Source: a virus. Taken from it: a DNA stretch of 31,560 nucleotides. This document shows, one piece after another, positions 2 through 31,560 of the stretch. The stretch's first letter is position 1, and the number at the start of each line of letters is the position of its first letter. The stretch is taken from positions 1 through 31,560 of the IMG/VR virus record IMGVR_UViG_3300008450_000262. One strand, 5' to 3'. A model generated the notes under the pieces. That model saw only the letters and a program-made list of their open reading frames with translations, did not search any database and was not told the DNA's origin. The position numbers and the translations under genes were made by a program.

Positions 2-2035
2 GTGGTTTCTGTTGACGATAACAGCACAACAACAAGCACCTCTTCCACAACTAATCCCGTTAAGTATTATGGAAGAGTAAGAACAATTGATACAGCTGGT
101 AATATTAGCGGATGGACATCTATCGTTGCATCTGGTGATACACCACTGATTGACGAAGAGTTCATAGGTTCATTGACAGCAGCAAAAATAACTGCTGGAA
201 CAATTGGCGCACATGAAATAATATTAACTCAACCCGGAACCGCAACAGCAATTACCAGTCCTGATAATAAGGCTATTTTAAGATCTTCAGATTATAATGG
301 TTCTTATAATAATACGACAGACACATGGACTAGTGGAACAGCTGGTTGGATTATTTCTGGAGACGGACGCGCAGAGTTTAATAATGCAACAATACGTGGA
401 ACGTTGCAATTTATAGACGGTTCTGCACCTGGATCAATTTTTTATGGGGCCACACAACCATCTATTCCTAGTCCATTTACCGCAAAATTAATTTCAGCAA
501 TATCAGGAAATGGAACATCGGTTACATATACTACTGGGACAACAGCTCATGGTTTATCTGTCGGTAAAATAGTATCATTAAATAACGTTGTTCCAAGTCA
601 GTATAATTTAAAAAATCAATATGTTACCGCGGTAACAACATATACATTTACTGTCACTAGTTCCGCCACTGGAACATTTAATCCAATTTATTCTGTTGGA
701 GCAGAAGTTGTGGCAGGTCAAATACCAGAATTTTCAATTTGGTATAACTCAACTAGTGGCGATAATAGATCTTACATTTATGGCTCAAGTGCATGGAATC
801 AAAGCTTAGGTAATGTTTCTAATTTAAGTCCCCAAAACCAAACGCAAACTGGATTAATTGCTGGAACAACAATAACTGGCGGAGGAATAACGTTGAGTTC
901 TGGAGGAAATATTAAAGGAGGACAAACAGCTTATGACACTGGAACGGGATTTTTCTTAGGGTATTCAGGGGCAGCATACAAGTTTTCCATAGGCAATTCC
1001 GCAGGCAATAAATTGACATGGGATGGAGCTAGCCTTTCTGTGACTGGAGCTATCAATGCAACTTCCGGAACATTTAGTGGGACAATAACTGCTAGCGGAA
1101 CAATCTCTGGAGGAACGATAACTGGTGCAACTATTAGTGGTTCAACTCTCACAACAGCTTCAACTGGAAATAGGGTTCATATCAATACTAATGATATAAC
1201 ATTATATTATAACGGCAATGACGTTAGTAACATCAATTTTTCAGGTAGTACAATATATAGTAATTCTATAGTTTCCGATGGAACAATTAGAATGAGGGGG
1301 TATTCAAGTAGTGGTGAAGTTAGAGTTGGCCTTAGGCCAGATTTAGATCCTGGAACATATATTTATGGATCTTATGGAACTGTTATACAAGGTAATCAAG
1401 AATCTACTCTTGCTAAGTATTCTCACCTATCTGTTACAGGTGTTAATCAATGTAACTTTGCTTTGCGGTGTTATAACACTCATATACAACTTAGGACAGC
1501 TGACAATGACGCAACCCTTTATATCAGAAGAGCTAATGATACTGCATATGCAAATATGGCATTAGGAACTATGTCAGTAAACGGAAATGGTATTTCATAT
1601 AATGGACTAACTGGCTGGGGAGGAACAGCGAATCAAATGGGCATGACATGGATTAGTGCTTTTGGTTCCATAATGGGTCACGTAGATAATGCTAACTCTA
1701 TCGTATTAGGAACGACATCGGACAGAAGATTAAAGGGGAACATTGCATCTACAAATACTGGATTATCAATCATTAATAATTTAAATACAGTATCTTATAA
1801 TCCTTTAAAAGTTTCAAGTTTTGAAGATGGAAAACCAATTGTAGATGGAATCCATGATGAAGTTACAATTATTGGTTTAATAGCAGATGAAGTTGAATTA
1901 GTTGCACCATGGCTGGTATCTGGAGATTTGTCAAAAGGGCAACTACAAAGCGTGAATTACGCGCTAATTACCCCGCTACTTATTAATGCCGTTAAAGAAC
2001 TTTCCTCTAGAGTAGAGAGTTTAGAAAATAAGTGA
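2..2035 (+). CDS. Tail fibre/tip protein with C-terminal S74 chaperone, 5'-truncated
   Basis: The reading frame is open from the left edge, so the true start lies outside the window; 677 codons are visible. The first ~50 residues look like the end of a fibronectin type III-like domain (YYGRVRTIDTAGNISGW). Next comes the segment IGSLTAAKITAGTIGAHEI, which resembles the shaft entry of phage tail-tip and central-fibre proteins. The middle is rich in G/T/S/I, with short repeats such as SGTITASGTISGGTITGAT around residues 360-385, suggesting a beta-rich trimeric shaft. The C-terminus has the S74 intramolecular chaperone signature: S573-D574-R-R-L-K, then a ~100-residue domain ending in a short coiled coil (SSRVESLENK). 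In this family the chaperone trimerises the fibre and cleaves itself off just before the Ser. The product probably binds the host surface; target and position on the tail are not known. Confidence 0.85.
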   Translation: MVSVDDNSTTTSTSSTTNPVKYYGRVRTIDTAGNISGWTSIVASGDTPLIDEEFIGSLTAAKITAGTIGAHEIILTQPGTATAITSPDNKAILRSSDYNGSYNNTTDTWTSGTAGWIISGDGRAEFNNATIRGTLQFIDGSAPGSIFYGATQPSIPSPFTAKLISAISGNGTSVTYTTGTTAHGLSVGKIVSLNNVVPSQYNLKNQYVTAVTTYTFTVTSSATGTFNPIYSVGAEVVAGQIPEFSIWYNSTSGDNRSYIYGSSAWNQSLGNVSNLSPQNQTQTGLIAGTTITGGGITLSSGGNIKGGQTAYDTGTGFFLGYSGAAYKFSIGNSAGNKLTWDGASLSVTGAINATSGTFSGTITASGTISGGTITGATISGSTLTTASTGNRVHINTNDITLYYNGNDVSNINFSGSTIYSNSIVSDGTIRMRGYSSSGEVRVGLRPDLDPGTYIYGSYGTVIQGNQESTLAKYSHLSVTGVNQCNFALRCYNTHIQLRTADNDATLYIRRANDTAYANMALGTMSVNGNGISYNGLTGWGGTANQMGMTWISAFGSIMGHVDNANSIVLGTTSDRRLKGNIASTNTGLSIINNLNTVSYNPLKVSSFEDGKPIVDGIHDEVTIIGLIADEVELVAPWLVSGDLSKGQLQSVNYALITPLLINAVKELSSRVESLENK

Positions 2036-2041
2036 TATAAT
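2033..2041 (+). promoter_or_regulatory. Possible extended -10 promoter (TGATATAAT)
   Basis: TGATATAAT is a perfect TGn-TATAAT extended -10. It overlaps the stop codon of the fibre gene and lies 24 bases before the start of the next small gene. There is no convincing -35 about 17 bases upstream, which is tolerated for extended -10 promoters. The same nine bases recur at 20778-20786. Activity is inferred only. Confidence 0.4.
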
Positions 2042-2044
2042 AGA

Positions 2045-2059
2045 CTCCTATTTAAGGAG
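2045..2059 (+). promoter_or_regulatory. Small hairpin covering the ribosome binding site
   Basis: CTCCT (2045-2049) can pair with AGGAG (2055-2059) across a five-base loop. The 3' arm is the Shine-Dalgarno sequence of the gene starting at 2065. A five-pair stem with three G-C pairs could damp ribosome access, but it may also be chance. Confidence 0.3.
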
Positions 2060-2064
2060 AAAAA

Positions 2065-2247
2065 ATGAACAATGATCTTGATATTAATATATTAGTTCAA
2101 ACCTTTAATGAGCGAATGGCCCAAATGATGACAGAGATTGTTATTAAGGAAGCCACCATTAAGCAGTTATCTGCTCAGATTGAGCAATTAACCGCACAAC
2201 AAAAAACAGTAAAAACAACAAAAACAAAAACAGATGAATTTGAGTGA
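2065..2247 (+). CDS. Small coiled-coil protein of unknown function
   Basis: Sixty residues, with a strong Shine-Dalgarno (AAGGAG, 2054-2059) five bases before the ATG. Residues ~20-46 form a likely amphipathic helix or coiled coil (IKEATIKQLSAQIEQLTAQQ), followed by a Lys/Thr-rich tail (KTVKTTKTKT) and an acidic end. It lies between the fibre gene and the portal and is separated from the next small gene by 10 bases. I do not recognise a family. The small size, coiled coil and basic tail would fit a minor virion protein or an assembly factor, but nothing shows which. Confidence 0.6.
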   Translation: MNNDLDINILVQTFNERMAQMMTEIVIKEATIKQLSAQIEQLTAQQKTVKTTKTKTDEFE

Positions 2248-2257
2248 GGTAAATAAA

Positions 2258-2449
2258 ATGTCAGATGTAATTGATGTAAATGAAGCAGTTGAAGCAAAAA
2301 AGGAATTCACCATCGAGATTAAGATCTCAGATGCAAATTTGCAGTATAAGAGCGATTTCAATGAAGCTGAAACAGTGTTTTGGATGGAGTCTGTCAAAAC
2401 GCTTATTCTAAATAACGCGTTTGCTAGATCGCAGCAATCTGGTCAGTAA
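2258..2449 (+). CDS. Small hypothetical protein
   Basis: Sixty-three residues if started at the ATG at 2258, which has GTGAGGT just upstream. An in-frame ATG at 2234 would overlap the preceding gene and lacks a ribosome site, so the later start is preferred. The sequence is acidic at the N-terminus, followed by a beta-like stretch (FTIEIKISDANLQYK) and an alpha-helical C-terminal part (WMESVKTLILNNAF). No family is recognised. It is the last gene before the promoter-like element that precedes the portal gene, so it may belong to the transcription unit of the fibre or of the small gene before it. Confidence 0.55.
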   Translation: MSDVIDVNEAVEAKKEFTIEIKISDANLQYKSDFNEAETVFWMESVKTLILNNAFARSQQSGQ

Positions 2450-2473
2450 CTTATAAAAAAAAATCCATAAGGC

Positions 2474-2487
2474 TACTATTATGATAG
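2474..2487 (+). promoter_or_regulatory. Putative phage promoter element, portal variant
   Basis: TACTATTATGATAG starts 35 bases before the portal ATG. It matches 12 of 14 positions of the element found at 5303-5316 and 8939-8952, including the dyad CTAT-N4-ATAG. TATGAT within it could serve as a -10. No clear -35 is present. Confidence 0.45.
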
Positions 2488-2508
2488 CTTTTATATTGGA
2501 GAAGATAA

Positions 2509-4173
2509 ATGGCAGTTCTCGATTTTTTGCCTTTTCGGCAAGTTGATAAAAAGAATAATATTGTAGCAAAAGCTCTTAAACCAGAAGAAATTAAATCTGT
2601 AAGCAAAGCGATGAAAGTCGCTGCCCTTGCACTTGGTTTTCAGGGCAATACATACTATTATAACAATAGAGCTACATTTGAACCTTCTCCCTATGACTTT
2701 GATCGTATTATGCAAGCTGCAGATACAGATTCTTACGTTAAACAGGCAATAAATAAATATAAAGAATTGTTCTGGAAAGAAAGCTGGTCAATAGTCGGAG
2801 AAAATCCGGAAGCTGTATCTTATCTATATCAAAGAATAGATTACATGGAAATGGCCATGAAAAGGCCGTTCTTAGATTTTTTAATCGAAATTACTGAACA
2901 TATTGTAAAGTATGCGAATGTTTTTATAGTTAAGGCTAGAGGTGACATATCGGAATATTTTCCAACTCCAATATCAGGAGTAAATGCACCGCAGCCTGTA
3001 GTGGGTTATTATTTAATTCCTACGGAACAAGTTAGAATTCTAAGAGATAAGTTTAATAGACCAAGATCTTATCAGCAGGCTACAGACCCTCTGACCTACA
3101 TGCCATCAGAACGAGATCCGGTATGGTCAGCTGATCGTGTTATTCATATGTATTTGGATAAAAAGTCAGGTCGAGCTTTCGGTACTCCGTTTCTAAGTTC
3201 TGTTCTAGATGATGTTGTTGCCCTTCGTCAGATTGAAGAAGATATCCAGAACCTTGTTCATAGAGAGCTTTTTCCATTATATAAATACACCATAGGCACC
3301 GCAGACCAGCCAGCAGAGCCTCAGGAAATCTCTAACGCAGCATCTGAGATAGAATCCTTAAGAGCAGAGGGTGGCCTAATTCTTCCTTACAGACACAATA
3401 TTGAAGTTATCGGTGCCAACAATAGTGCACTTGAAGCTTCACAATACCTGGAGCACTTTAAGGAAAGAGTTGCAGTTGGGCTTGGGGTTGCCCCTCATCA
3501 CCTAGGTATGATGATGAATGGTGGAAACAGATCAGTGACTGATCGTCTAGACACTGCTTTGTATGATAAAGTTAAGCAGTATCAGAAGATAATGGCAGAA
3601 ATGATTAGGGTTCATATTTTTAATGAACTTTTACTTGAAGGCGGATTTGACCCCGTAACTAATCCCTTGGAAGAAGGTTCTTCTGACAGATGCTATTTCA
3701 AGTTTAACGAAATAGACGTTGATACTCAAGTTAAAAAAGAAACGCATGTTATACAAAAGTATGTTAATAATATTATTTCAATCAAAGAAGCAAGACTAGA
3801 ACTTGGCATTAATCCTGATTATGAAGAAGATGAAATGTTTGCTGCCATACAGGGTAAAGTTCAAATAGATTTAGCAAAAAACCAAGCAGAACTAACAATG
3901 ACAAAGTCGGCTCCTAAAGATGCTGTTATAGATGGCGATAAACAAGCTCCGGCACAAAAAGGTCAAAGAAACTTACCAAATCAAAGACGTGGCGTCGGAA
4001 ATGCAACACGTCCAGCAAATCAGCAAGGTAGAAATACTTCACCAAATATCAGAAGATCAGACAATGCATGGTTGACATTAGTTGAAAATGCCCTTGAATC
4101 AGAGTATACTATAGTCTATACAAAAGAGGAAAAGGAAATTGATAATGTCGACAGATCTGACACTAAAGAATGA
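2509..4173 (+). CDS. Portal protein
   Basis: The 554-residue product would form the dodecameric ring at the special capsid vertex through which DNA is packaged and ejected. Recognition rests on a typical portal core. After an N-terminal region with paired helices comes a segment around residues 160-270, including YYLIPTEQVRILRDK and VWSADRVIHMYLDKKSG, followed by FGTPFLSSVLDDVVALRQIE and the long stem helix. A later stretch (VGLGVAPHHLGMMMNGGNRSV, about 322-342) matches the crown-side wing region. The C-terminal tail (from ~481) is Gln/Asn/Arg-rich and probably disordered. GGAG lies ten bases before the ATG. It begins the head module and overlaps the next gene by 29 bases. Portal identity is secure; the exact subfamily is not known. 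Confidence 0.9.
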   Translation: MAVLDFLPFRQVDKKNNIVAKALKPEEIKSVSKAMKVAALALGFQGNTYYYNNRATFEPSPYDFDRIMQAADTDSYVKQAINKYKELFWKESWSIVGENPEAVSYLYQRIDYMEMAMKRPFLDFLIEITEHIVKYANVFIVKARGDISEYFPTPISGVNAPQPVVGYYLIPTEQVRILRDKFNRPRSYQQATDPLTYMPSERDPVWSADRVIHMYLDKKSGRAFGTPFLSSVLDDVVALRQIEEDIQNLVHRELFPLYKYTIGTADQPAEPQEISNAASEIESLRAEGGLILPYRHNIEVIGANNSALEASQYLEHFKERVAVGLGVAPHHLGMMMNGGNRSVTDRLDTALYDKVKQYQKIMAEMIRVHIFNELLLEGGFDPVTNPLEEGSSDRCYFKFNEIDVDTQVKKETHVIQKYVNNIISIKEARLELGINPDYEEDEMFAAIQGKVQIDLAKNQAELTMTKSAPKDAVIDGDKQAPAQKGQRNLPNQRRGVGNATRPANQQGRNTSPNIRRSDNAWLTLVENALESEYTIVYTKEEKEIDNVDRSDTKE

Positions 4174-16935: not shown

Positions 16936-18198
16936 ATGGCTATACCTGGAGTAAAAACATTAATTAGAGATCGCTTCTACAGTGTGTCGCGTCAGGATAC
17001 ACCTGTTGGTCCTAGAATAGTAGCGATAGCACGTCGTAGCACGGCTAACAATACTGGTTCAGTAGCAGATCTTGACGTTGTAAGAGTAACTAACGAGGCT
17101 GATGTAATCACCGCTTTTGGAGATGGATCAGACGCTCACCGTGCATATCTAGAGCTAGTTTTGGCTGGAGCTGGAAGAATTTATATTGTACCACTTCCTT
17201 CTGATACAAAGTGGGACACTGATCCGGATAGCCCTGTATCTACTGGAACTGTAACTAGCGTAAGTTATGGTGGCTCGGTTTTCGACGCTGCCTTTATTGC
17301 AGCAGAAGCTGCTATTCCCGACATTATTATTCCTTGGGGAAGAGGCGCTCACCCAGACGATTGGCAGAGCCCAGCTACGCCTAGCGATGACGCAAAAATT
17401 GGCTTTGTTGCAGATAATACGTCAACCCCATCAAGCAACTGGGCCTATCAGGTAGCTGCAAAGGTGAAGGATATTTCTGAAAACATCAACCCTTGCATCG
17501 CAATCATGGGAGTCAAGCCATACGTTTCAACAACAGAAACTATGACTCCTGGTCAAGTTTCTACACATTTGGCACTGACAAATCTTCCCGACAGAAATGC
17601 TAGCGCTTCCTTCAAAGAAGTTGGCCCATATGTGGTTGTAGTCGCTGCGGAAATCAAGCCCGTAAACTATCAGTCTGGAACAACAGAGTTTGGTTACGCT
17701 AACGGAGCCGCTCATGTTGCTGGCGCTTTAAGCTTGCTTCCTTCATATAGTTCACTAGTAAATAAGGCTCTCTACAATGTAGAGGCTGTTCGTTATGCCC
17801 CTTCTAGAACTCAGCAGACTGCTCTCGCTACTAAGGGTGTTAATACTGTTGTCATTAACTTTAATAAGATTCCAGTATTCGGAGAAGGTTTAACATTTGG
17901 TTGGGCAACATCAGACTACACCCGTCTCTCAACAAAGAGAATTGTAGACGACGCCACATCAGTTGTAAGACAAGCCTGCCAGAGATTTGTTGGCGAACCA
18001 TCAAACATTCAAACAAGAAATGCGATGGAGACAGCAATCACTTCTGGCTTGAGAGGAATGCAAATTGTAGGAGCCTTGCTTGGTAGTGACTTTACAGTCT
18101 CGTACATACCAAATGAAAACAAGGCGATTGTAGACCTCATTTTAACACCTGCCTTCGAACTCAAAGAGATCGAAGTCAGAGTAGCCATTAATCTATAA
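16936..18198 (+). CDS. Main tail sheath protein
   Basis: The 420-residue product would polymerise around the tube and contract on infection. It has a sheath N-terminus (VGPRIVAIARRSTANNTGSV and VTNEADVITAFGDGSDAHRAY), where a ring subunit meets a Rossmann-like strand order. Then come LVLAGAGRIYIVPLPSD, PDIIIPWGRG, and a C-terminal conserved domain (STKRIVDDATSVVRQACQRF … AMETAITSGLRGMQIVGALL) ending in the beta-strand pair LTPAFELKEIEVRVAIN that links neighbours. Codon use shifts to CGT/CGC and C-ending codons, as in the capsid gene. GGAGG lies 12 bases upstream in a loop that TTGG/CCAA pairing could close. It shares a transcription unit with the tube gene. Confidence 0.8.
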   Translation: MAIPGVKTLIRDRFYSVSRQDTPVGPRIVAIARRSTANNTGSVADLDVVRVTNEADVITAFGDGSDAHRAYLELVLAGAGRIYIVPLPSDTKWDTDPDSPVSTGTVTSVSYGGSVFDAAFIAAEAAIPDIIIPWGRGAHPDDWQSPATPSDDAKIGFVADNTSTPSSNWAYQVAAKVKDISENINPCIAIMGVKPYVSTTETMTPGQVSTHLALTNLPDRNASASFKEVGPYVVVVAAEIKPVNYQSGTTEFGYANGAAHVAGALSLLPSYSSLVNKALYNVEAVRYAPSRTQQTALATKGVNTVVINFNKIPVFGEGLTFGWATSDYTRLSTKRIVDDATSVVRQACQRFVGEPSNIQTRNAMETAITSGLRGMQIVGALLGSDFTVSYIPNENKAIVDLILTPAFELKEIEVRVAINL

Positions 18199-18226: not shown

Positions 18227-18889
18227 ATGGCCGCAGAGGAATATACATCAGTAAATAAGTATCTCAATACTTATACCACATTCTCAGGTGCAGACATTGT
18301 AGCTACATTTGGTGGAGTGGAAATAGGTGCGCTTTCGGGTATCACCTTCTCCGTCACTAGAGAAAAGGCTCCAATCTACACCATGGGATCACCCAATCCT
18401 CGCTCTTTCTCAAGAGGCAAAAGAGGTATAGCTGGTTCATTGATCTTCACAGTATTTGATCGCCCAGCTCTATATAAGATGTTAGATCAGAACTATTCGC
18501 AAAATAGACCAATGGACTTCTACACCAGAAGCCACAATACACTTCCTGGCGACAATGGTCACAGAAGAGGTATTGCTGATGTCAACGAACAGAAGACTGG
18601 CGTTGTAAAAAAGGTTCCTTTCTACGCTGACCAGATTCCACCTTTTGACATTACCGTAACATTTGCCAACGAGTATGGTCAGGCAGCTGTTAGATCAATA
18701 TTCGGCGTAGAACTTCTTAACGAAGGTTCTGGCGCTTCCATGGACGACATTGTCATCGAAGAAACCATGACTTATGTTGCTCGTGAACTTGGTCCTATGT
18801 ACACAATCAGAAATGACACTCTTGTTGATCCAACCAATTTGGTAGGAATAACACCCGAGGGATTGAACACAACAATTATCAGACCCTGA
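18227..18889 (+). CDS. Main tail tube protein
   Basis: A 220-residue product with a strong GGAGGG ribosome site. Tube-like features include an opening YTTFSGADIVATFGGVEIG, a beta pair around ITFSVTREKAPIYTMG, RGIAGSLIFTVFDR, and a C-terminal PPFDITVTFANEYGQ … MTYVARELGPM. This order is repeated in the next two genes, so the three form a paralogous set. Position directly after the sheath gene, high-expression codon use and the strong terminator right behind it mark this copy as the abundant tube subunit. In contractile phages the tube is a stack of hexameric rings through which DNA passes. Confidence 0.75.
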   Translation: MAAEEYTSVNKYLNTYTTFSGADIVATFGGVEIGALSGITFSVTREKAPIYTMGSPNPRSFSRGKRGIAGSLIFTVFDRPALYKMLDQNYSQNRPMDFYTRSHNTLPGDNGHRRGIADVNEQKTGVVKKVPFYADQIPPFDITVTFANEYGQAAVRSIFGVELLNEGSGASMDDIVIEETMTYVARELGPMYTIRNDTLVDPTNLVGITPEGLNTTIIRP

Positions 18890-18909: not shown

Positions 18910-18952
18910 ATAGGTGCATGGGAGTTATCTTCCATGCACTTATTTATTTTTT
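18910..18952 (+). terminator. Intrinsic terminator after tube gene
   Basis: ATAGGTGCATGGGAG (18910-18924) pairs with CTTCCATGCACTTAT (18929-18943) around a TTAT loop: a 15-pair stem with two G-U pairs. It is followed by TTATTTTTT. It lies between the first and second tube-like genes; the ribosome site of the next gene (TTGGAG) begins just after it. It probably lowers expression of the downstream tail genes relative to sheath and tube. Confidence 0.85.
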
Positions 18953-18962
18953 GGAGATTTTA

Positions 18963-19760
18963 ATGGCAGAAATTAAGACATTTACTTTTAGAAAAAGTAA
19001 ACAAGAAGAAGCAGTTCAGCAAAGTGGTAATGACCTTTATGACTGGGAAAAATATCTATCAACAATGTCATACTCTGGGGCAGACGCTGTTGCGACAATC
19101 GTTTTGCCGATTATCGGTCCAGATGGAAATGTTGAGTCTCAAGGCGATTCTATAAATCTAGGAGAGTTACAGACTATATCATATTCTGTCCACAGAGAAA
19201 ATTCTCCAGTAAGAACTCTTGGTCACGTTAATGTTCGGGGCTTTATTAAGGGTGGAAGAACTATAGCTGGCAGCCTCATCTTTACAGTATTTAACGAATA
19301 CGCTTTTTATAGAATAAAAGAGTTTAAGCAATATCTGGCAAGAAAAACTGGATACTTTGCCCCTCTAGCGGACATGTTGCCGCCATTTGATATTGTTATT
19401 ACATTTTTCAATGAATACGGTCTCGGTTCAAAAATGAAAATATTTGGAGTAACAATAGTTGACGAAGGCCAAACCCTGTCTGTAGACGACTTAATTACAG
19501 AGCAGACCTACACTTACATGGCTAGAGGAATACAACCACTAGTAAGAATGCCAAATGACAGCACTGTATCAAGAGATACTTCTTATACAGATGAAATGAA
19601 GGCTAGGGATCAAATTAGTACAAATGTTTTTGGCGATTTGATTATAACGGATCTTGCTCAGCTACAAAGTCAAGCTGAAGAAACAGCTTATTATAATACA
19701 AAATATAATAAACCCACAGTTCCAGCCCAGGTTATTCAGCCTGGAAGATTGCACCTATAG
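18963..19760 (+). CDS. Second tube-like protein
   Basis: The 265-residue product is read from the ATG at 18963, which has TTGGAG before it; an earlier in-frame start would run through the terminator hairpin. It repeats the layout of the preceding tube protein: MSYSGADAVATIVLPI, ISYSVHRENSPVRTLGH, RTIAGSLIFTVFNE, PPFDIVITFFNEYG, TYTYMARGIQPL. It adds a charged N-terminus and a longer C-terminal tail. Codon use is ordinary, and it follows a terminator, so fewer copies are likely. It could be a tube-initiating, tube-tip or baseplate-proximal ring. Paralogy is clear by eye; the role is inferred. Confidence 0.7.
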   Translation: MAEIKTFTFRKSKQEEAVQQSGNDLYDWEKYLSTMSYSGADAVATIVLPIIGPDGNVESQGDSINLGELQTISYSVHRENSPVRTLGHVNVRGFIKGGRTIAGSLIFTVFNEYAFYRIKEFKQYLARKTGYFAPLADMLPPFDIVITFFNEYGLGSKMKIFGVTIVDEGQTLSVDDLITEQTYTYMARGIQPLVRMPNDSTVSRDTSYTDEMKARDQISTNVFGDLIITDLAQLQSQAEETAYYNTKYNKPTVPAQVIQPGRLHL

Positions 19761-22015: not shown

Positions 22016-25000
22016 TTGATTAGAGATCCAGGGCCTATTCATAACTTAGGTTATAGCGTAACATCCAGAGATGTTCCTACAATGATAGACGAAGAAAGGG
22101 GCGATGCCCCTAATTCGTCTTTTATCTCAAAGGCCTTAAATAATCACCCTGTTTTAAGATTTGTATCTACGGCAGCCACTACCATGGCTTCAGCTTTTGT
22201 TTTGTCTAAGATAACAAAACAAGGTGGTCTAAAGCTAGCCAAAACAGTTCAAGACAGAGCGGATAGTGGAGCAAGCAGATTTGCTTCAAATATTGTTAAT
22301 GTATTTCCTAAAATCAGAAGAGAATTCGACGAACTTTCTGGCGTTAGCCGAATGATAGATGGGAATACTCCTGATCAAATAGATCCTTATTCAAGACTTG
22401 TTTTTGAAACCGCAGAAGGTAAATTAACTACCGGCGTCATTAAGCATACAGATAGAGGCTATCACTGGACTGCTGGAGAAATCAGCAAAAGTGGTAAGGG
22501 TATAGAATACGAGACTGCGGGAATATGGGGCTTCCGAGAAGAAGCTCAGTCCCGTTTGGTCTCTATGGCCCGTAGAATGCCCTATGAGCTGCCAGCAATG
22601 TATGTTGGCCAGAAAGCTATAGTTGATCCAATTTTTGGCGGTAGAGACGATTCTAAGGTCAAATGGTACAATCCTGTAGACGTAGTTACGGACTTCGTTA
22701 AGGACTCTACCATTAACCTAGTTACCATGATGATTCCAATGGAGGTTGGTGGCGCTGCCATTGGCAACGCAAGGTCATCCTTATCTAATTTTAGATATTC
22801 TATGTCAGACCTAGCTAGGTCTACCGGTACAACTGATTTAAAAACAAGATCTTCAAGGGCATTTGTCAATCTAGCCGACATGTTGTCAGAGGTTGGTCAT
22901 GACCTGGCAGACATAACTCAAAAGGGTTTAAAGGTTTCTGCTCAAACTAGTGGAGCAATTAAAGCTGCAACCACAGAGTATAGTCAGCAAAGAGTTGACA
23001 TTAATGCAATTCTTTCGCGAACAAGAAACTTAAGAGCAAAACAGATCTATGAGGATTCTAAGGGCTCAAAATTAAAAAGAGCTAGAAACGTAGCAACGCA
23101 GTATGCGTTTGGCAATGACGCCAGTGGCAATTCTGGGTATTTAGATTTATTTCCGGGACTAAGAGGTGTTGGAAGTGCCGTAAGGCAGGGTATAAATCAA
23201 TTCCGTAAAGTTGGCTACGGCTACGATGTAATAACGAGAGCTATTGATTTTGATGCAGCTGTGCAGAGATATGGCGCAGCTAATCCAAATGCTTTTAGAA
23301 CAGAACTAAAGGGAATAGTCGGCAACCTTCAGGCGAACTCCTCTAATAGAATGACGACTATGGCTAGCAAGATTGCTAGAACATTTGGTGGTCCGGCTGG
23401 ATCAGATAACTTCTATGCATCAGAGTTTTATAAGGGAATAGAACAAACTGAGTATAAAAAAGTTTTATATAAATCCTTAATGGAAAGAACTGCAACTTCA
23501 GATAGAGATGAGTTTGCAAGAACAATAGCAAAATTTGTTGACGACATTGACGTTAGCAAAACTGCAATGGAGCCCTCTAGAAGAGTAACTATAGGCGAAA
23601 CCAAAATACTACTCGATGGAGATGAGCCATTTGATGAAATCATAAATAGATTCAAGGGCACTCTTGCAAAAACTAGGGCCGATGAGTTCGTACAAAAAGT
23701 CGGAAATTCTGATGTACTAAAAGATTCTATTATCGACGCTAACAGACTTTTCACTGGCGCACAATTCCAGGCAGCATTAAAAGGAAAGGCAAACAAAGCT
23801 TATAAGGCATTCCAGGAACAAGGAATGGTTAAGGTAGCTGGAAAAGTCTTAAAAACTAAAAAAGCAGATTTTGAAGATTTCCTAGATTTAGATAATCTTT
23901 CTTACGCACAAAAAGATTTCTTAGTTAAAAGATCAGCTCAAAGATTAGGCATGAGGCTAAAGACAGCTGATGGCAGAGATTTAACAAGAGGAGAATTAGG
24001 GGAGTCTTTAGGTAAGGTCGGCCTTAACATAAAAGATGCCGGTCAATTAAGAAGTTTTCTTGTTAGAGAAAAACAAATAAGTTCGGGAGTTTTTGCTAGT
24101 GGTTTTAACCTTCTTGGATTAAGAAGAATCACTGTTGATGAAGCAAATCAACGCGGAGTTTTTGCAAATGTAGACGATGAGACCAAGCGCGTTATAAATC
24201 AAATGTCTTCCAGCATGGTAAGGGCTGATCCAACGACAACCGCTGCTAGCGTTTCTGTTCTTCCAGATGTATTTATAACTAAGACTGGTAGTATTTTAGA
24301 TGTTTCTGGAATAAGACAGTCTGCAAGAAATGTTGGAAACTTTTTAGCTAACGATTTAAGAATACCAGTTCTTGGATTTAATCCGGCAGATTTGGCGGCT
24401 AAGCAATCTTTTAATGAAATGTCCGGAAGGGCTCCGTTCCAGTTTATTCAAGGTAGAGTTTCTCAGCCATTTTTACAGGGCGCTGATAAGTCGGCTGATT
24501 TCTATTTGTTCTACAGCGGAGGAAGAACAAAAGGTAATGTTATGGCATTTAATTATAATGTCATGGCCCAGCAATATACTTCTAGGACTTTAGATGGTAC
24601 ATTTAGACCTTTAGCTAAGAATAGCTCGCAATTGTTAACGAGGGCAGCAAGAAACGCTGCAGCGGAAAGAGATGCTGAGTCATTAAACTCTTTAAGTTAT
24701 CAAGAAGGTACATTTAGAAGCAGATTCTTTTCTGGCCTATCAAGATTTGGAATGACGCCAGAAAGAGAATTTAGGTTTAGAGAATTTTTTGATATTAACT
24801 ATGATCAGCCAAACTCTGTATTTGGCTTCTTGTCTAGATTCTCTAGAAGAAATATTGATCCAGAAAATCCAAGATTCCTTGCACAAGTGATGACTGGCAA
24901 GGAAATCCCTACCAAAGCTGGTACAGCAAAAAGAAATATAGTAAAAAGCGCTGATGGAACTGTAGAAAAAATTAATGTAATCGATGTTGCCTCTGGCGAA

Positions 25001-28000
25001 GAAATGGTTTCAGAAAAAGCCTTATTAGAAGCTTTTGAAGGATTCAGAAGAAGAACTCGTGCAGCTGGCTTTTCTCGTCGTGCAATGAAGCGAATTGAAG
25101 AAGCTGACCCAGCATTAGCTACTTATCATGGACAAAAAATTACCGATCTTCAAAATGTTCAGGAAAAAATAGATTTTGCTAACGTCCTGCTTAGAGGCGT
25201 AGACAGAGATGCAAATATTCTTAGAAGACAGGGCATCGATCCTGTTGCGCTATATCAAAGCGGATCCAGGATCAATAAAGTATTAGAGGAAGCAGATCTG
25301 TTGTCTGGTTCTCAAATTCGTTCTGTTAGTCCAACAATTATTTCAAGAGAAGATGAATTAACAAATGAAATGTTTAAGTTTCTAATTCAAAGAAATGAAT
25401 TAGTTTCAAATAGCACTAGACAAACATTTGGTCAAAATTTTATTAAAATAAACCAAGCACTGACAAGCATGGCAAAAGAAATACCAGCTGGTGAACTAGC
25501 TGAAGCACAAGCTGCGGCCTTTGGTGCACTAACTAACCTTAACTCGGTAAGAGCAAATAGATCTTTCTTAAAAGAGATTGAAGTTCAAAGAAGAGCGTTA
25601 GCAAACGTTATTGAATCTTTAGAGTCTGCTCCAGAATTGGCGCAACCATTTATTAGTGGTTCCATTGAACGAGTTGGGGAAATAGGAAGACTTGGTTTAT
25701 TTAAAAAATTATTATATCCATCATTAAGTACAGCTTCTTTCAAAATATCTCATCTAGCAACAGACCCACTTGGTTCCGCAACTGGCCCCGGTGCTGACGT
25801 TTTACTAGTTCCTACTTTTGGTAGCGTATTTTCTAGAAATCCAATAGGCGCCCTCAAGAGCGTTGCTGGTATTAATACGTACAGTAGTCCAGAGAGTTAT
25901 TCAAATTTATCAGCCGCAGTTTCTCATGGTGTTGAAAGATTAAACAAATACTTTGGAACAGTAGGCTTACAGCTAGACGTTAATCAGTATGGTTCGCCAT
26001 TAGACTTGTTTGCTAGGGGCATGGTAGGCAAGAGGGTTTTGCCACTTTATGCTGGTGGCATGGCCTTTATGACTGCTGACAGAACAATTGGCGGGATGGT
26101 CAACGAAAAAGATGCAAGAGGAGAAAGAGTTTATTCTCCATTTTTTGTCGGAGCTGCCGCAAAAGCTGTTGGAGAAATTCACGCCCTAGGAGCTGGAGCT
26201 ATGCCCGGCGGTATGAGCTACGAAGAAAAGAGAGAGCAGCTTTTTGAAGGAGAGGTTCCCATAAGACAGGGTCGTTTTTGGCCCTTGGGCAATACACCCT
26301 TTATGGGCGGAAAGATAATGTATTATAGGCCCAGTATTTATCGCAAGATTGAAACTGGCGCCATGTTTACATCTGACACCTATGGTTCGCCTATTGAAAG
26401 AGCTTTATTCTATACTGATATATCACCATTGCGTCCTTTAGATCCTTATCGTTTCGAAAGAAAACACTATGAAGATAGACCGTATCCTATTACTGGAGAA
26501 TATTTTTCTGGTCCATTTGGTCCGCTGACTCCCGCCTTAAATGCTACTGTTGGAAGAGTACTAAAGCCACAAATAAAAATGCATGAGCAAGAGGTTTCTC
26601 AAGCATTATCAAATTATGCTCCGGCAGGACAATCTGGCGCATATGATGCTAGCGCTTATTTGCGACAAATTTCAATGCCTATGCTTCCTGGGCAGGCTCC
26701 GCAGCAACAGTTTGGTCAAGCGTCAATTGGCGGAGCTATGCAGGGAGCAGGACCAATTATGTCTATGGGCATGTCTTCTGGCGGACCTGGTCCGGGTATG
26801 CAGGCATCATCAAACGCCGAGCTAGCAGGTAGAGCTGGAGCTTTGAATACAGCTAAATATTCAACGATGCAAAACATAGGGCAGATAAATAGTCAGTATG
26901 CCCAAATGGCATATGGTCCGCCGAAAACTCCTGGCATGATGCCACCAAGAATAGTTGGTGCAGGATCGCCAATTTCTGTTGGTGATCCACAGGTTCAGAT
27001 ACAAGAATTTGGCTATAGAACACAGGAAGCCTTGGGTATATATGGTTTTGCTGGCGCAGCATTTAGGGAATCCTTTGGTTATGGTCAGGGTGACTTTGAG
27101 CCCCAAAGGGCAGTTCTTCAGTCTGCATCTAAAGCTTACGGAATGAGTAGACAGTTTTGGGACTATAACCTTGGAGGACTTGGTGACGTTCCGATGTTGG
27201 GTGGAAGGAACTTTGGTTCAATAGAATTTTCTGAAATAACTAGAAGATTTATACCAAAAGAAAGAACTGGAGTTGATTATCTTAATCCTATACAAAATAC
27301 AATGGGACAACAGTATCCATTTTTACCAGGCCCAGAATATTACTTAGACTTTACTAGAGGAGATCCGTTCACTAAAGTCCAAGAAGGAGAATTGCGTTTG
27401 CCAGGAGTGGCATACGAAAGGCTAAATCAACTTCGTTCTGATGAAACTGGAAGATATGGTTTATTAGATCAATTTAAGATCTTAGGAGATGTTGCGCCCT
27501 ACTCTAAACAATATAGATATTTAGATAAAAAAATAGATAGTTATCTTAACGACCCTTCGGAAAAATTAGAGGCAGATAACATTAGAAATAGAGTAGCCTC
27601 TATACAGCAAAAAGAAAACTTCTCCGAATATAGTCATGTTGGTAAAACAGCAGCAGAGGCTGGAACAAATCCTTTAATTCATAATATATCTCGTGCAGCA
27701 GAATATATTGCGCATAGAGATACTTTTATAAATAGAAAGTTTATTAATAAACAAACTGCGGTTGAGGATTGGGAAAGAAACAATGTTTATGGCGCAACTT
27801 TCCCAGAATGGCAAAGGCCTTTTGAAAGCTTTGTGGAGCCAATGATAAATAAAGCAGCAGACCGCAATCCAATAGCTGCTTCTGCAAGCTTGGCTGCTGC
27901 AGGCCTTTTTGCTGGCAGGACTCAGCCAGGTAAGTTGGTTATGTCTGGCTTGGGTGCAGTGACTGGACTAGCAGCTTCCGCCGGGGCAAATCTTCAGGAG

Positions 28001-28711
28001 GCAATAACTGGGGATAGATTTATTCCAACCGAAAGAAAGAAAGAACTAGCTCTTGAAGAGTATTCTGATATTTTAACTTATGTCAAAAATACAAGACTAG
28101 CCAATATGGCTGAAGCATCTGGTGATGCAGCGGCAGCTTTCCAATTTAGTTCTGCAGCAAAAAGAACAATGTATGGTGCGCCCATACAGGATATTGGCAC
28201 TGGAAAATATGGAACAGATGTTGAATCTCTTTCTCTTGCTATTCCTAAAAGAAAAAGAGAACACTTTAAGGCAATGATAAATGCTCCAGAGCAAGATAGA
28301 GAAAGAATACTTTCAACAGCTGGCAGATTAGAAAGAAGAATATACGAAGCTGCATGGGGTATGCAGGTGGAAAAGCGCCCAGAATTAACAGACTATTTCA
28401 GCAGACACGAGCTGCCAGATGAAGGCTGGGAAGGGTGGCATCCCAATACTAATATGGATTCTGTTAAAATTAAAATAGGCCAACACATGGGTCTTGAAAT
28501 GTCTCAAATGGGTTACTATCCACAACAGATAAGAGAAGCAAATCTTGCTAATCCAAGCTACCCTCGGTTCGGTTACTCTTCGGACTCCAATGCAGACGTA
28601 GCATATAGATTGCGATCTTTAATGAATGGCATGGGGGTTACTGGTTCCGTAACGCCTGTGATGAATCCATTTGGTGGTCAACAAGTTGACATAAGTGCAG
28701 GAGTTAGATAA
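22016..28711 (+). CDS. Giant protein in tape-measure position
   Basis: The 2231-residue product starts at TTG 22016, with AGGTAGGAAA just upstream; the first ATG (22082) has no ribosome site. The place directly after the chaperone pair is that of the tape measure protein, which sets tail length and is ejected ahead of the DNA. Hydrophobic Ala/Gly/Val stretches near residues 45-65, ~1337-1360 and 1952-1992 fit membrane insertion on ejection. Residues ~1553-1652 are a Met/Gly/Pro/Gln-rich linker (e.g. MLPGQAPQQQFGQASIGGA). Unlike many tape measures, it has few long coiled coils and much Arg/Tyr/Pro/Gly-rich, globular-looking sequence, with no lysin or peptidase motif that I recognise. A large ejected internal protein is the alternative. 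Confidence 0.6.
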   Translation: MIRDPGPIHNLGYSVTSRDVPTMIDEERGDAPNSSFISKALNNHPVLRFVSTAATTMASAFVLSKITKQGGLKLAKTVQDRADSGASRFASNIVNVFPKIRREFDELSGVSRMIDGNTPDQIDPYSRLVFETAEGKLTTGVIKHTDRGYHWTAGEISKSGKGIEYETAGIWGFREEAQSRLVSMARRMPYELPAMYVGQKAIVDPIFGGRDDSKVKWYNPVDVVTDFVKDSTINLVTMMIPMEVGGAAIGNARSSLSNFRYSMSDLARSTGTTDLKTRSSRAFVNLADMLSEVGHDLADITQKGLKVSAQTSGAIKAATTEYSQQRVDINAILSRTRNLRAKQIYEDSKGSKLKRARNVATQYAFGNDASGNSGYLDLFPGLRGVGSAVRQGINQFRKVGYGYDVITRAIDFDAAVQRYGAANPNAFRTELKGIVGNLQANSSNRMTTMASKIARTFGGPAGSDNFYASEFYKGIEQTEYKKVLYKSLMERTATSDRDEFARTIAKFVDDIDVSKTAMEPSRRVTIGETKILLDGDEPFDEIINRFKGTLAKTRADEFVQKVGNSDVLKDSIIDANRLFTGAQFQAALKGKANKAYKAFQEQGMVKVAGKVLKTKKADFEDFLDLDNLSYAQKDFLVKRSAQRLGMRLKTADGRDLTRGELGESLGKVGLNIKDAGQLRSFLVREKQISSGVFASGFNLLGLRRITVDEANQRGVFANVDDETKRVINQMSSSMVRADPTTTAASVSVLPDVFITKTGSILDVSGIRQSARNVGNFLANDLRIPVLGFNPADLAAKQSFNEMSGRAPFQFIQGRVSQPFLQGADKSADFYLFYSGGRTKGNVMAFNYNVMAQQYTSRTLDGTFRPLAKNSSQLLTRAARNAAAERDAESLNSLSYQEGTFRSRFFSGLSRFGMTPEREFRFREFFDINYDQPNSVFGFLSRFSRRNIDPENPRFLAQVMTGKEIPTKAGTAKRNIVKSADGTVEKINVIDVASGEEMVSEKALLEAFEGFRRRTRAAGFSRRAMKRIEEADPALATYHGQKITDLQNVQEKIDFANVLLRGVDRDANILRRQGIDPVALYQSGSRINKVLEEADLLSGSQIRSVSPTIISREDELTNEMFKFLIQRNELVSNSTRQTFGQNFIKINQALTSMAKEIPAGELAEAQAAAFGALTNLNSVRANRSFLKEIEVQRRALANVIESLESAPELAQPFISGSIERVGEIGRLGLFKKLLYPSLSTASFKISHLATDPLGSATGPGADVLLVPTFGSVFSRNPIGALKSVAGINTYSSPESYSNLSAAVSHGVERLNKYFGTVGLQLDVNQYGSPLDLFARGMVGKRVLPLYAGGMAFMTADRTIGGMVNEKDARGERVYSPFFVGAAAKAVGEIHALGAGAMPGGMSYEEKREQLFEGEVPIRQGRFWPLGNTPFMGGKIMYYRPSIYRKIETGAMFTSDTYGSPIERALFYTDISPLRPLDPYRFERKHYEDRPYPITGEYFSGPFGPLTPALNATVGRVLKPQIKMHEQEVSQALSNYAPAGQSGAYDASAYLRQISMPMLPGQAPQQQFGQASIGGAMQGAGPIMSMGMSSGGPGPGMQASSNAELAGRAGALNTAKYSTMQNIGQINSQYAQMAYGPPKTPGMMPPRIVGAGSPISVGDPQVQIQEFGYRTQEALGIYGFAGAAFRESFGYGQGDFEPQRAVLQSASKAYGMSRQFWDYNLGGLGDVPMLGGRNFGSIEFSEITRRFIPKERTGVDYLNPIQNTMGQQYPFLPGPEYYLDFTRGDPFTKVQEGELRLPGVAYERLNQLRSDETGRYGLLDQFKILGDVAPYSKQYRYLDKKIDSYLNDPSEKLEADNIRNRVASIQQKENFSEYSHVGKTAAEAGTNPLIHNISRAAEYIAHRDTFINRKFINKQTAVEDWERNNVYGATFPEWQRPFESFVEPMINKAADRNPIAASASLAAAGLFAGRTQPGKLVMSGLGAVTGLAASAGANLQEAITGDRFIPTERKKELALEEYSDILTYVKNTRLANMAEASGDAAAAFQFSSAAKRTMYGAPIQDIGTGKYGTDVESLSLAIPKRKREHFKAMINAPEQDRERILSTAGRLERRIYEAAWGMQVEKRPELTDYFSRHELPDEGWEGWHPNTNMDSVKIKIGQHMGLEMSQMGYYPQQIREANLANPSYPRFGYSSDSNADVAYRLRSLMNGMGVTGSVTPVMNPFGGQQVDISAGVR

Positions 28712-28713
28712 AT

Positions 28714-31560
28714 ATGATGGGAAAAATAGCATCCTTTTTACAAGGGAGACGAGAACAGATTCCGGAATATGAATCTATTAACGATTATTTAGCCTCCTAT
28801 TTGTCTCCTCTTTCTCCAGAAAAACAAGTTAGAGCCGCCAGAAGAATTTTAGGTAAAATTCCTACTGGACAGAAAAAGCTAATAGAACCATTTGTTGATC
28901 CTTCTGATAATATTTTAAAGTATAGATCAGCTTATGATGATCCGGATCCTGCAATTGGCAGAAAAGTTTTTGATACCGTTGATGATGCTATTCAGTATTT
29001 TTCTTCTCTACAGATAACAGAAGTTTATAGAATATCTAAACAAGATGTTCCAGTTGTTTATAGAGGCTATGCGGAAGTTTTGAAGGATATAGAAAGAAAT
29101 GCTATTGCACAAAATCTATTTGGAATAGAAGGTTTAGAAATGAACATTGCTATTCATAAAGGGCAAATGGATTCCCAGCAGGGCAATGAGGCGCTAAAGG
29201 CTTTCTTTAAAACGCAAAAAGAAAAAGGATATGGTCTACTCCTGCCTACTGATGAGGGGGGTGTAGCAATGAATCTTGTTGCAACAATTGCAGGAAAAAG
29301 ACAGGTTTTAAATCTGGAGCAAACTTTAGAGGTAATGCAATCAGCGAATGTTTCCATCATAGACCCAGATGTTTTAGAAGAAGCAATGAGATCTGGTAAC
29401 AAAAAACTCGCCTCCTTGATTCAAAAGTTGGACAAGAGATTGCGCGGAGTGTTGTCACCAAGAGAAATTTCTATTGCTGGCGACGCAATGAGAAGGGTCC
29501 TTGATGAAGTAGGTAAGCCAGGGATGTCATTTGCTGACTCAATTCTTAATACTGATCCGGTTTATGAAGCATTAGGATTGGCTCTAGATGTAGATACATT
29601 AAAAAATGTTTCTACAATGAAAAATGCCGAAAAAGCCGCAGATGCTGCACAAAGAATAAAAGATTCCTGGATGATCAAAGGAACTGATAGATCTAAAGAG
29701 TTTTACAAAACAATATTAGATGAAGTTATCCAAGGCCAAAGCGGTCCTTCAAAAAAGTTGGCTGGAAAAGAAAGTCAAATATATGCAGACGTTACAAGCT
29801 ACCTCAAGATCGCAATGCAAGATGCGATAGACAGTGGAGATGTTGATATTACGGTAGGCAAATATGGTACAGATGTTCTAAAGAAAAAATTAGGCTCGTT
29901 AAAAGAAACTCTTGAGAAAAAAGCAGGAGGCAGCGAAGCTGCTCTTAAAGCAATAGATCAAAAATTCAGTATAATTGATATTCTTCTGGATGAAATTGAA
30001 AAAGGATCAGATGGCTCAATGTTGATCAATACTCCGTATACTAAAGCTATTCAAAGAGGCTATCAAGCTGAATTAGATGAGCTAGATAAGCGTTACGCAC
30101 AAGCTAAAGATAGACTAGAAAAAGAAGATATTCTTTTAAAGAAAAGAGAAATTCAAAAATCGATGAGCCAATTAGATGAATCAAAAGGTTTATCTCAAAT
30201 AACTGTTCGTGGCAACGTCGTATTTGATCAGGGTGATGCAACTAGGCCTGCAAGAATATTTTCCCTAAAAGGCGCAGCAATGGATGTTGAATTTACCGGA
30301 AGGTATACCAAGTATTCAATTGTTGCACCTAAAGCCACAACAAAGAGGGAAACAAGAATATCTGGAGTTAGAGATATACTAAATATAAGCGGAACTGGGG
30401 AGTCCAAGGGTGCAGTCTACGCAGACCCGATGCTTGATGCATTTCACTCTGCAGTATTCGGTTCAACGCAATCGCAAAAGTTGGGCAGAGAATATTCACA
30501 GCAAGTACAAAAAGAATTAAACGCAATGTTGAAGGCAAATAGAATTGACGAAAGTAGCACCTTCTTCCAGTCTTTGCAAAGAGCTGCTAATGAAATGTCT
30601 AGCGATCTATTAGAAACTCAACAATATTCACAGCTTATGCACAGGACGTTGGCTCAAGAAATATTGGCAATACACAAGAGTGGAGTTCCGTTGGATCAGC
30701 ATCCTAGGGCCATGAATAGAATTTTAGACTTTGCTCAGAAAGAATTTTTTAAACTAAAGAAAGGAATTCCCCTACCAGTAATGCCCGATGTTTACAGATT
30801 TGCCTTAAATGCAGAGTCAACTCAGGTTGGAATTTCTGGTGGAAGAATGTTCCTAGATATGGCCGATTCTAATATAGCCATGGATGAAGGATTTAGTATA
30901 AATACTACTAGGGTAAGATTTTCTAATCACAATTTATTGATGACCGAAAGAGACGTAATAAGATTTCACCATGCACTTGGTGGGTTCGACCTTGACGACA
31001 AGGGTCTACCAGTACTTGGTACATATATGTCTAACGGTAAAAGGCGTTTGGCCATGGCAATGGCTCGTCAGCCTACGGGCGCAGGAGAAATGGTAGGATT
31101 TGTTGAATTTAGAGACGTAGAAAGCTATAGAGAATTATTTGGTCATAATAAAGACTTCCTTAAGACATTGGATCAAATGATTTTAGACGAAGAAGAAAAG
31201 TTGGCATACCTTCAGGGTTCTGGTGGCTCTCCGGCATTACAGCGATTGAATATATTAAAAGAAAATTTAACAGGCAAACTTACAGCTGAAGACATGACTC
31301 GAATTGATGAGTCAGGTATATTAGATCAGTTGGAAGAAACAATAATAGATGTTAGAGATAGACTGTATGGTGGCAAAGCTAGAACTTTTAATAGATCATA
31401 TTTTGAAGCTCTCGGCGTATTAAAGCAAGGCGAAAGTACAGTCAATTTTTTTGCAGGATCAAGGCTTGTTGATTTTGCTGGAGTTGATCCAGGTTTAGCT
31501 TCTTTAGGTTTTCAAAAGTTAAAAACTGAAGTAATGACTCTAAATCTTGAAAATGACGTC
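28714..31560 (+). CDS. Giant protein, 3'-truncated; possible divergent RNA polymerase-like domain
   Basis: The frame is open for 949 codons from the ATG at 28714 (AGGAG at 28699-28703) to the right edge; I translated it throughout and found no stop. Residues 1-450 are mostly helical and charged. Residues ~450-485 form a coiled coil (LDELDKRYAQAKDRLEKED). A beta-rich block follows (~493-570: TVRGNVVFDQG, TKYSIVAPKATTKRETRISG), then helices. At 688-700, LPVMPDVYRFALNA resembles the 'LNRAPTLHRLGIQA' element before the RNA polymerase beta' active site. At 755-762, LGGFDLDD resembles LGDFDGDx, with the first Asp replaced by Gly. The gene starts three bases after the tape-measure-position gene. It could also be a tail or ejected structural protein with a chance acidic loop. 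The function is unproven. Confidence 0.7.
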   Translation, partial: MMGKIASFLQGRREQIPEYESINDYLASYLSPLSPEKQVRAARRILGKIPTGQKKLIEPFVDPSDNILKYRSAYDDPDPAIGRKVFDTVDDAIQYFSSLQITEVYRISKQDVPVVYRGYAEVLKDIERNAIAQNLFGIEGLEMNIAIHKGQMDSQQGNEALKAFFKTQKEKGYGLLLPTDEGGVAMNLVATIAGKRQVLNLEQTLEVMQSANVSIIDPDVLEEAMRSGNKKLASLIQKLDKRLRGVLSPREISIAGDAMRRVLDEVGKPGMSFADSILNTDPVYEALGLALDVDTLKNVSTMKNAEKAADAAQRIKDSWMIKGTDRSKEFYKTILDEVIQGQSGPSKKLAGKESQIYADVTSYLKIAMQDAIDSGDVDITVGKYGTDVLKKKLGSLKETLEKKAGGSEAALKAIDQKFSIIDILLDEIEKGSDGSMLINTPYTKAIQRGYQAELDELDKRYAQAKDRLEKEDILLKKREIQKSMSQLDESKGLSQITVRGNVVFDQGDATRPARIFSLKGAAMDVEFTGRYTKYSIVAPKATTKRETRISGVRDILNISGTGESKGAVYADPMLDAFHSAVFGSTQSQKLGREYSQQVQKELNAMLKANRIDESSTFFQSLQRAANEMSSDLLETQQYSQLMHRTLAQEILAIHKSGVPLDQHPRAMNRILDFAQKEFFKLKKGIPLPVMPDVYRFALNAESTQVGISGGRMFLDMADSNIAMDEGFSINTTRVRFSNHNLLMTERDVIRFHHALGGFDLDDKGLPVLGTYMSNGKRRLAMAMARQPTGAGEMVGFVEFRDVESYRELFGHNKDFLKTLDQMILDEEEKLAYLQGSGGSPALQRLNILKENLTGKLTAEDMTRIDESGILDQLEETIIDVRDRLYGGKARTFNRSYFEALGVLKQGESTVNFFAGSRLVDFAGVDPGLASLGFQKLKTEVMTLNLENDV

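Follow-up and report, generated by a model that had tools for sequence, protein, structure and literature searches.

Phage P23-45 has a virion polymerase within its tape measure protein (gp96) and a non-virion paralogue, gp64 (PMC10770324). In PMC7598289, the DxDGD motif of cellular beta' is described as universally conserved and the lysines of the partner barrel as contacting the transcript. For QDE-1, PMC1750930 gives barrels at residues 690-792 and 916-1018, catalytic aspartates at 1007, 1009 and 1011, and invariant lysines K743 and K767. Here we describe a giant gene at the end of a 31,560-nucleotide stretch of viral DNA (IMG/VR record IMGVR_UViG_3300008450_000262, positions 1 to 31,560; the window). 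Very probably, this gene encodes a single-chain two-barrel RNA polymerase (RNAP) that would be carried in the virion together with the tail. Its product, termed type I, is most likely an RNA polymerase of the virus, distantly related to the cellular ones, with a predicted activity. As far as can be read from its residues, the protein resembles two-barrel RNAPs but is without the canonical DxDGD/DxDxD triad, a defining feature of these enzymes. The parts of the gene are the following:

28714..31560, plus strand: first 949 codons (5' part) of a giant gene in the virion module, coding for type I, a putative virion RNA polymerase; open to the window end
30181..30423, plus strand: putative barrel of the beta type, spanning about residues 490-570; R499 (30208), K519 (30268) and K544 (30343) are conserved; strands in both AlphaFold models, and conservation
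30436..30753, plus strand: connector between the barrels, mostly helical, about residues 575-680; AlphaFold models
30748..31113, plus strand: putative beta'-type barrel region, about residues 679-800; strands in both models, and structural match
30772..30813, plus strand: LPVMPDVYRFALNA, residues 687-700, with near-invariant R695 (30796); sequence and conservation
30976..31002, plus strand: LGGFDLDDK, residues 755-763, putative metal-binding motif DxDD (D759, D761, D762); [FY]D[LFM]DD in 66/66 neighbour-selected loci
31066..31089, plus strand: RQPTGAGE, residues 785-792, R, P and E conserved downstream of the motif; the paralogues likewise have the R and the P, in the form RxPN

A first-pass annotation of the window had drawn attention to the frame opening at 28714 and to LGGFDLDD at residues 755-762 (window 30976-30999), and both were confirmed in the sequence. 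The gene is cut solely because the contig ends there. Its full length, for which the annotation had pointed beyond the window, is 1,694 codons in locus L003, whose protein is 100% identical over the shared 949 residues; in L004-L007 and L009 it amounts to 1,669-1,691 codons.

As the downstream neighbour gene is better conserved, it was used to find remote homologues of the type I gene in the same slot, leaving the motif itself out of the selection. In an eight-row alignment including six remote members found in this way (20-27% identical), LGGFDLDDK is invariant; LGGFDLDD is the most conserved stretch of the type I gene, a motif that goes beyond chance. A second neighbour-based scan gave 78 loci from the best 80 of 221 confirmed ones. 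Four loci with a match starting at the locus edge were left out, and eight of the remaining 74 had too little upstream DNA, so that 66 were examined; they include near-duplicates and fall into 48 clusters. In all 66 the slot gene has [GS][GT][FY]D[LFM]DD (GGFDLDD 48, GTFDLDD 11, GGFDFDD 3, and STFDLDD, GTFDMDD, SGYDLDD and GGFDMDD one each). The scan pattern left the residue at D762 free and no locus came out empty. Thus D759, D761 and D762, whose invariance the annotation had made a touchstone, are unvaried in 66/66 loci.

The residues around the motif were counted in the aligned rows of the 48 clusters, with one row (L029) misplaced: R499 is kept in 39/39, R695 in 45/46, K544 in 43/44 and K519 in 40/43. 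The annotation had placed a beta-rich, lysine-containing block upstream, i.e. a beta-type barrel before the beta'-type one, and this agrees with strands in both models and with the conservation of K519 and K544; the check that it had proposed, whether the upstream lysine is invariant, shows K544 to be nearly so and K519 somewhat less. A pattern search with GGFDLDD, of which 80 of 106 confirmed loci were kept and reduced to 46 representatives, is selected by the motif and therefore uninformative on motif variation. Among 63 motif-selected representatives, the aligned rows keep K544 in 61/61, K519 in 58/59, R499 in 59/60 and R695 in 62/63, and R785, P787 and E792 each in 63/63. Also conserved there are N1055, R1056 and D1098, and the structural match spans the same region, where a bridge helix and a trigger loop would be sought. 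The distance from K519 to K544 is 25 residues, compared with 24 between the QDE-1 lysines. The element upstream of the motif, given by the annotation as residues 688-700, is present with a span of 687-700; the gapless match to the LNRAP element of beta' proposed for it found no support in Pfam, PHROGs or PDB sequences, and the order of P and R differs, though R695 is near-invariant.

Starting from a weak match of the type I profile (E 0.005) in a related phage of 206 kb, we found an 849-aa protein that is encoded away from the tail module and reads SHGGHDEDDFF...RSPNGYGEY; we term it type II. In 16 records chosen for carrying type I, some possibly incomplete, type I was found again in 16/16, in one of them in pieces. 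Type II is present in 11/16 (49-74% identity) and a more distant type III in 9/16; 14/16 have at least one of the two outside the tail module, as a putative non-virion polymerase. Neither type was seen in the Bacillus phage vB_BauM_KLEB27-3 or the Moorella phage MTATph1. Type III comes in two forms, IIIa with GG[DPA]D[LE]DD (G005, G007, G010, G014) and IIIb with TWDQDGD (G004, G006, G009, G011); G008 also carries a type III gene. The two lysines of the beta-type region are present in types II and III as well. In the six records with both types, the genes lie on the same strand with III upstream of II (6/6), at a distance of 11.8-13.2 kb for IIIa (G005, G007, G010) and 9.0-9.8 kb for IIIb (G004, G006, G009); these coordinates suggest that IIIa and IIIb occupy one locus. 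The 267,766-base record G013 has two type II genes, at 1564-4059 and 210237-212759.

In profile-profile comparisons (hhalign), type I matched type II with E 2.3e-5 (probability 76%) and IIIa with E 5.1e-6 (probability 86%), and the paralogues matched each other with 1.8e-21 (II-IIIa), 1.9e-18 (II-IIIb) and 1.1e-22 (IIIa-IIIb). Of eight controls against type I, four reversed profiles gave E 0.32-0.59 and four unrelated proteins 0.11-0.67; the lowest control over all profile comparisons was 0.0056, for IIIb. The direct comparison of type I with IIIb was not significant (E 0.018, motif outside the alignment); their relation goes by way of II and IIIa.

These paralogues allow the motif to be read. 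The hhalign alignments of IIIa with IIIb and of II with IIIb, and a MAFFT alignment of all seven type III rows, are gap-free through the motif and pair HGG-D-D-L-D-D-T with HDT-W-D-Q-D-G-D; the upstream H and, in type III, the downstream R align too. By this pairing D759 and D761 correspond to the first and second aspartates of DxDGD, and D762 stands at the glycine position. The annotation had taken G757 for a lost first aspartate; that reading needs gaps, the flanks align gap-free to DQDGD, and position 757 is G or T in 66/66 loci, never D. Judged by these alignments, it is the third aspartate that lies one residue early (DxDDx for DxDGD), unlike in the known relatives examined. Its usual position is taken in type I by K, S, T, H or E, and D762 may serve as the replacement third metal ligand. 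For PolD, PMC4996933 reports two critical aspartates, D956 and D958, in a fold that can make DNA, so the superfamily can work with a changed ligand set. The canonical triad is found in the KLEB27-3 protein in the same slot (DYDGD) and in type IIIb (DQDGD), and DxDD and DxDGD homologues both occur in genomes carrying type I.

Alternatively, type I might be a two-barrel relative that has lost catalysis and been retained in the tail for a structural or DNA-guiding role; the triad that is not intact would fit this, as would the place of the gene among structural genes and a conserved hydrophobic segment and tail at the C-terminus. Set against it are D759/D761/D762, both lysines and R785/P787/E792, which are among the most strictly kept residues at about 20% identity, and the DxDD of homologues outside the tail module. 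We regard a dead relative as unlikely. The annotation had spoken of a highly diverged or degenerate polymerase: a highly diverged relative of the two-barrel RNAPs fits our results, and 'degenerate' is improbable, since the three aspartates, the lysine pair, R785, P787 and E792 are preserved throughout this strongly diverged family.

An AlphaFold2 model of residues 205-1190, built from 41 sequences, reached a mean pLDDT of 81.9 and a pTM of 0.81. A second structural alignment of this model covered 441 chains, and among the matches listed, alignments longer than 100 residues were to two-barrel RNA polymerases only: QDE-1 (Z 7.6, 417 residues, rmsd 5.0), 8f72 and 8f5m, i.e. P23-45 gp64 and a close relative (Z 7.0 over 332 residues), and maize RDR2 (Z 6.3 over 379 residues). 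With a model restricted to the barrels (residues 486-812, pLDDT 74, pTM 0.60), QDE-1 came first (Z 5.1, 219 residues, aligned to its residues 721-1019) and RDR2 next (Z 4.9, 209 residues), and the third-best of 994 aligned chains scored 3.8 over 64 residues. P23-45-type enzymes are not among the matches listed for this smaller model, which carries no weight against them. We give the modest Z values weight since with both models the long alignments were headed by this one fold, which had been predicted beforehand. In the structure prediction that the annotation had recommended, two-barrel RNAPs thus lead the long alignments, with Z below 8 and no significant Foldseek match in the PDB. Neither freely varying aspartates nor a confident structure lacking double-psi barrels, which the annotation had named as grounds for dropping the idea, was encountered, the assignment of the putative barrels following from strands and structural alignment. 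Foldseek against viral models found two uncharacterised proteins of uncultured phages (E 9e-8 and 7e-7, low TM-scores).

Several observations weigh against a polymerase of this kind. The canonical DxDGD/DxDxD triad is replaced by DxDD in all 66 type I loci, and K519 and K544 are imperfectly kept in the neighbour-selected clusters. Neither by sequence nor by profile did type I match a characterised RNAP significantly: its profile gave nothing significant with the polymerases of P23-45 and KLEB27-3 or that of the Crassvirales (E 0.08), the last being a comparison that the annotation had proposed, nor with KLEB27-3 or MTATph1 as a whole. Foldseek against the PDB yielded nothing at E < 0.001 with either model, and the top row by Z of the structural alignment was a short helical match to ALPK1, an unrelated protein (Z 7.9, 68 residues). 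The Z-scores of the polymerases are modest (<8), in a range that a common arrangement of elements can reach, and the assignment of the barrels is deduced from the models. Likewise, packaging into the virion is deduced from the gene's position among virion genes.

The sequence searches were otherwise unproductive. Nothing useful was obtained for the window protein in Pfam, PHROGs, GenBank phages or PDB sequences, for the 41-row type I alignment in the PDB, or for single members in Pfam and PHROGs; types II and III gave only weak matches in the same kinds of search (E 0.024 or worse). L073, a relative from the middle of the family, had no match in GenBank phages, and 157 pattern matches in GTDB genomes included no relative. 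A scan of G001-G007, KLEB27-3 and MTATph1 for D[FY]DxD revealed no further polymerase in frames above 150 codons, being blind to DQDGD and DxDD. If the likeness of the motif were coincidental, with the conserved block serving some other function, the lack of significant RNAP matches in sequence and in Foldseek against the PDB would be expected. The long alignments of both models are nevertheless led by two-barrel RNAPs, the lysine pair and its spacing fit such an enzyme, and canonical motifs appear in the slot homologue (DYDGD) and in type IIIb (DQDGD); we hold a protein that is no polymerase at all to be highly improbable.

As to the task of such a polymerase, a family-C DNA polymerase was found in 7/9 related phages searched, with families A and B in 0/9 each. 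Rpb1 domain 2 (PF00623, beta') was likewise found in 0/9, with 14/14 control genomes positive, whereas a search for T7-type RNAP matched neither phages nor controls, so that absence of this type is not shown. The findings on DNA polymerases and Rpb1 domain 2 favour transcription over replication as its role. A two-barrel nucleic-acid polymerase serving a different purpose, e.g. as a primase, a replicase or an RNA-templated enzyme, would accord with the RNA-templated QDE-1 and RDR2 among the closest structural matches and with PolD as a DNA-making member of the fold. It is made very unlikely by the family-C enzymes, by the lack of a recognised beta'-type RNAP in the nine phages and by a tail-module place that matches the P23-45 virion RNAP (PMC10770324).

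According to our proposal for a transcribing polymerase, type I would travel in the virion as part of the tail assembly and probably enter the host by ejection, alongside the DNA, where it would transcribe the earliest phage genes. The beta-type barrel would supply K519 and K544 and the beta'-type barrel the metal-binding loop D-x-D-D (D759, D761, D762); the paralogues of types II and III outside the tail module may then take over later transcription. Catalysis, ejection, this division of labour and metal binding by D762 are what we infer from the findings above. On balance, we favour the view that a widespread group of large uncultured phages relies for transcription on single-chain two-barrel RNA polymerases of its own, as many as three homologous ones with one carried in the virion, and that most of these enzymes have a working D-x-D-D loop with the third metal-binding aspartate moved by one residue from DxDGD. 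Both loop forms are seen within one type at a similar genome place, so the move would have taken place within a living lineage.

Two further genes of the window bear on the setting:

22016..28711, plus strand: upstream gene of 2,231 codons, tape-measure candidate by position and size
16936..18198, plus strand: tail sheath gene (phrog_16991, E 4e-20)

Portal, major head and tail sheath genes all lie within the window, and the sheath gene upholds the contractile phage assumed by the annotation. Its naming of the neighbour as the tape measure gene fits in position and size, without a PHROG or Pfam family match for the 2,231-codon product. Directly after the tail sheath, adjacent genes at 18227-18889 and 18918-19760 both match PHROG 9206 (labelled major head protein); they are tandem paralogues and perhaps encode tube proteins.

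The type I gene is encoded with virion genes, upstream of a baseplate-type gene in 66/66 loci chosen by that gene. This giant downstream gene, of which L003 contains 2,432 codons, matches both a putative baseplate gene of KLEB27-3 and an MTATph1 gene labelled endolysin, with about 30% identity over 27-30% of the length. In KLEB27-3, gp034 (annotated 'structural protein', 2,434 aa) stands directly before the homologous giant baseplate gene and contains NRYPTI...LKADYDGDF, with the canonical polymerase motif DYDGD; a sub-threshold match to Rpb1 domain 2 (E 0.015) falls at the DYDGD place. As there is no profile match, its link to type I consists of synteny and motif. No close relative of gp034 was found in IMG/VR. 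The N-terminal stretch of gp034 (L117:7460-14764) has a weak tblastn match (E 2e-3) to MTATph1, overlapping an RNase_T match there. This stretch looks like a DEDD exonuclease. The MTATph1 slot region showed no polymerase motif in the genes read; it contains a transposase gene and several small genes, flanked on one side by a 1,309-aa protein and on the other by the giant endolysin-labelled gene (L116:7721-15077), and the slot polymerase may have been lost or broken.

The C-terminus of type I (L003:14744-15082) consists of a hydrophobic helix followed by GPPLLPGGSAYE, with DPYQQLASSF as the final residues; outside the barrels, few parts are as well conserved as this tail. The type I gene is split over two reading frames in L060, L061, L063, L069 and L091, the break falling shortly past the beta'-type barrel (observed directly in L060, L063, L069 and L091; the frame of L061 ends in the same way). 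These split genes could encode a two-piece polymerase or reflect frameshifts; group I introns as the cause were discarded, with 0 Rfam matches in 11 loci. In G016:22700-23667 the type I match is in pieces with TGA and TAG inside, pointing to stop-codon reassignment, frameshifts or a broken gene.

In the literature on two-barrel/DxDGD phage polymerases, KLEB27-3 and MTATph1, no description of the type I family came up, judged by titles and abstract openings, with subscription journals thinly covered. If our proposal is true, it would add a group of uncultured phages that have virion and non-virion polymerases of their own, unrecognised by Pfam and PHROGs here. It would also provide a natural family with a displaced third aspartate and both forms inside one protein type, so that the tolerance of the metal site becomes directly testable.

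Among the known systems, P23-45 has a single-chain two-barrel RNAP in the tail module and a separate non-virion paralogue, as is proposed for the phages described here, and gp64-type structures are among the best structural matches. The P23-45 enzyme gp96, with the motif DFDGD, is a fusion with the tape measure protein (PMC10770324), whereas type I has a gene to itself and reads DxDD, and there is no match at profile level. The virion RNA polymerase of the Crassvirales (phi14:2; gp66 in papers, gp077 in the record used) is a giant single-chain virion protein, as is proposed for type I, and its DFDID has a bulky residue between the second and third aspartates, as in type I; 80 fetched relatives have DFDID (79) or DFDVD (1), with DFDID contained in one of the six search patterns. 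KLEB27-3 gp034 occupies the same slot as type I and differs in its DYDGD, its 2,434 aa and the lack of a profile match. The cellular RNA-dependent RNA polymerases QDE-1 and plant RDR2 are the best structural matches over long alignments. QDE-1 differs in its three catalytic aspartates (1007, 1009, 1011; PMC1750930), and both differ in host, size and role. For RDR2, sequence retrieved with two consensus peptides, reading QIRYGGYKGV...SMKKF and HSMAVDFAKTG, was compared visually only. By eye, the R..KG..K of the beta-type barrel and an AVDF.K element that comes later are similar to RDR2 sequences. As a visual lead, the retrieved stretches look like QIRV....GLIKGN...NIKPEI in type III and like ASETAVD in type I, where the eight-row consensus reads SETAVDFSK.

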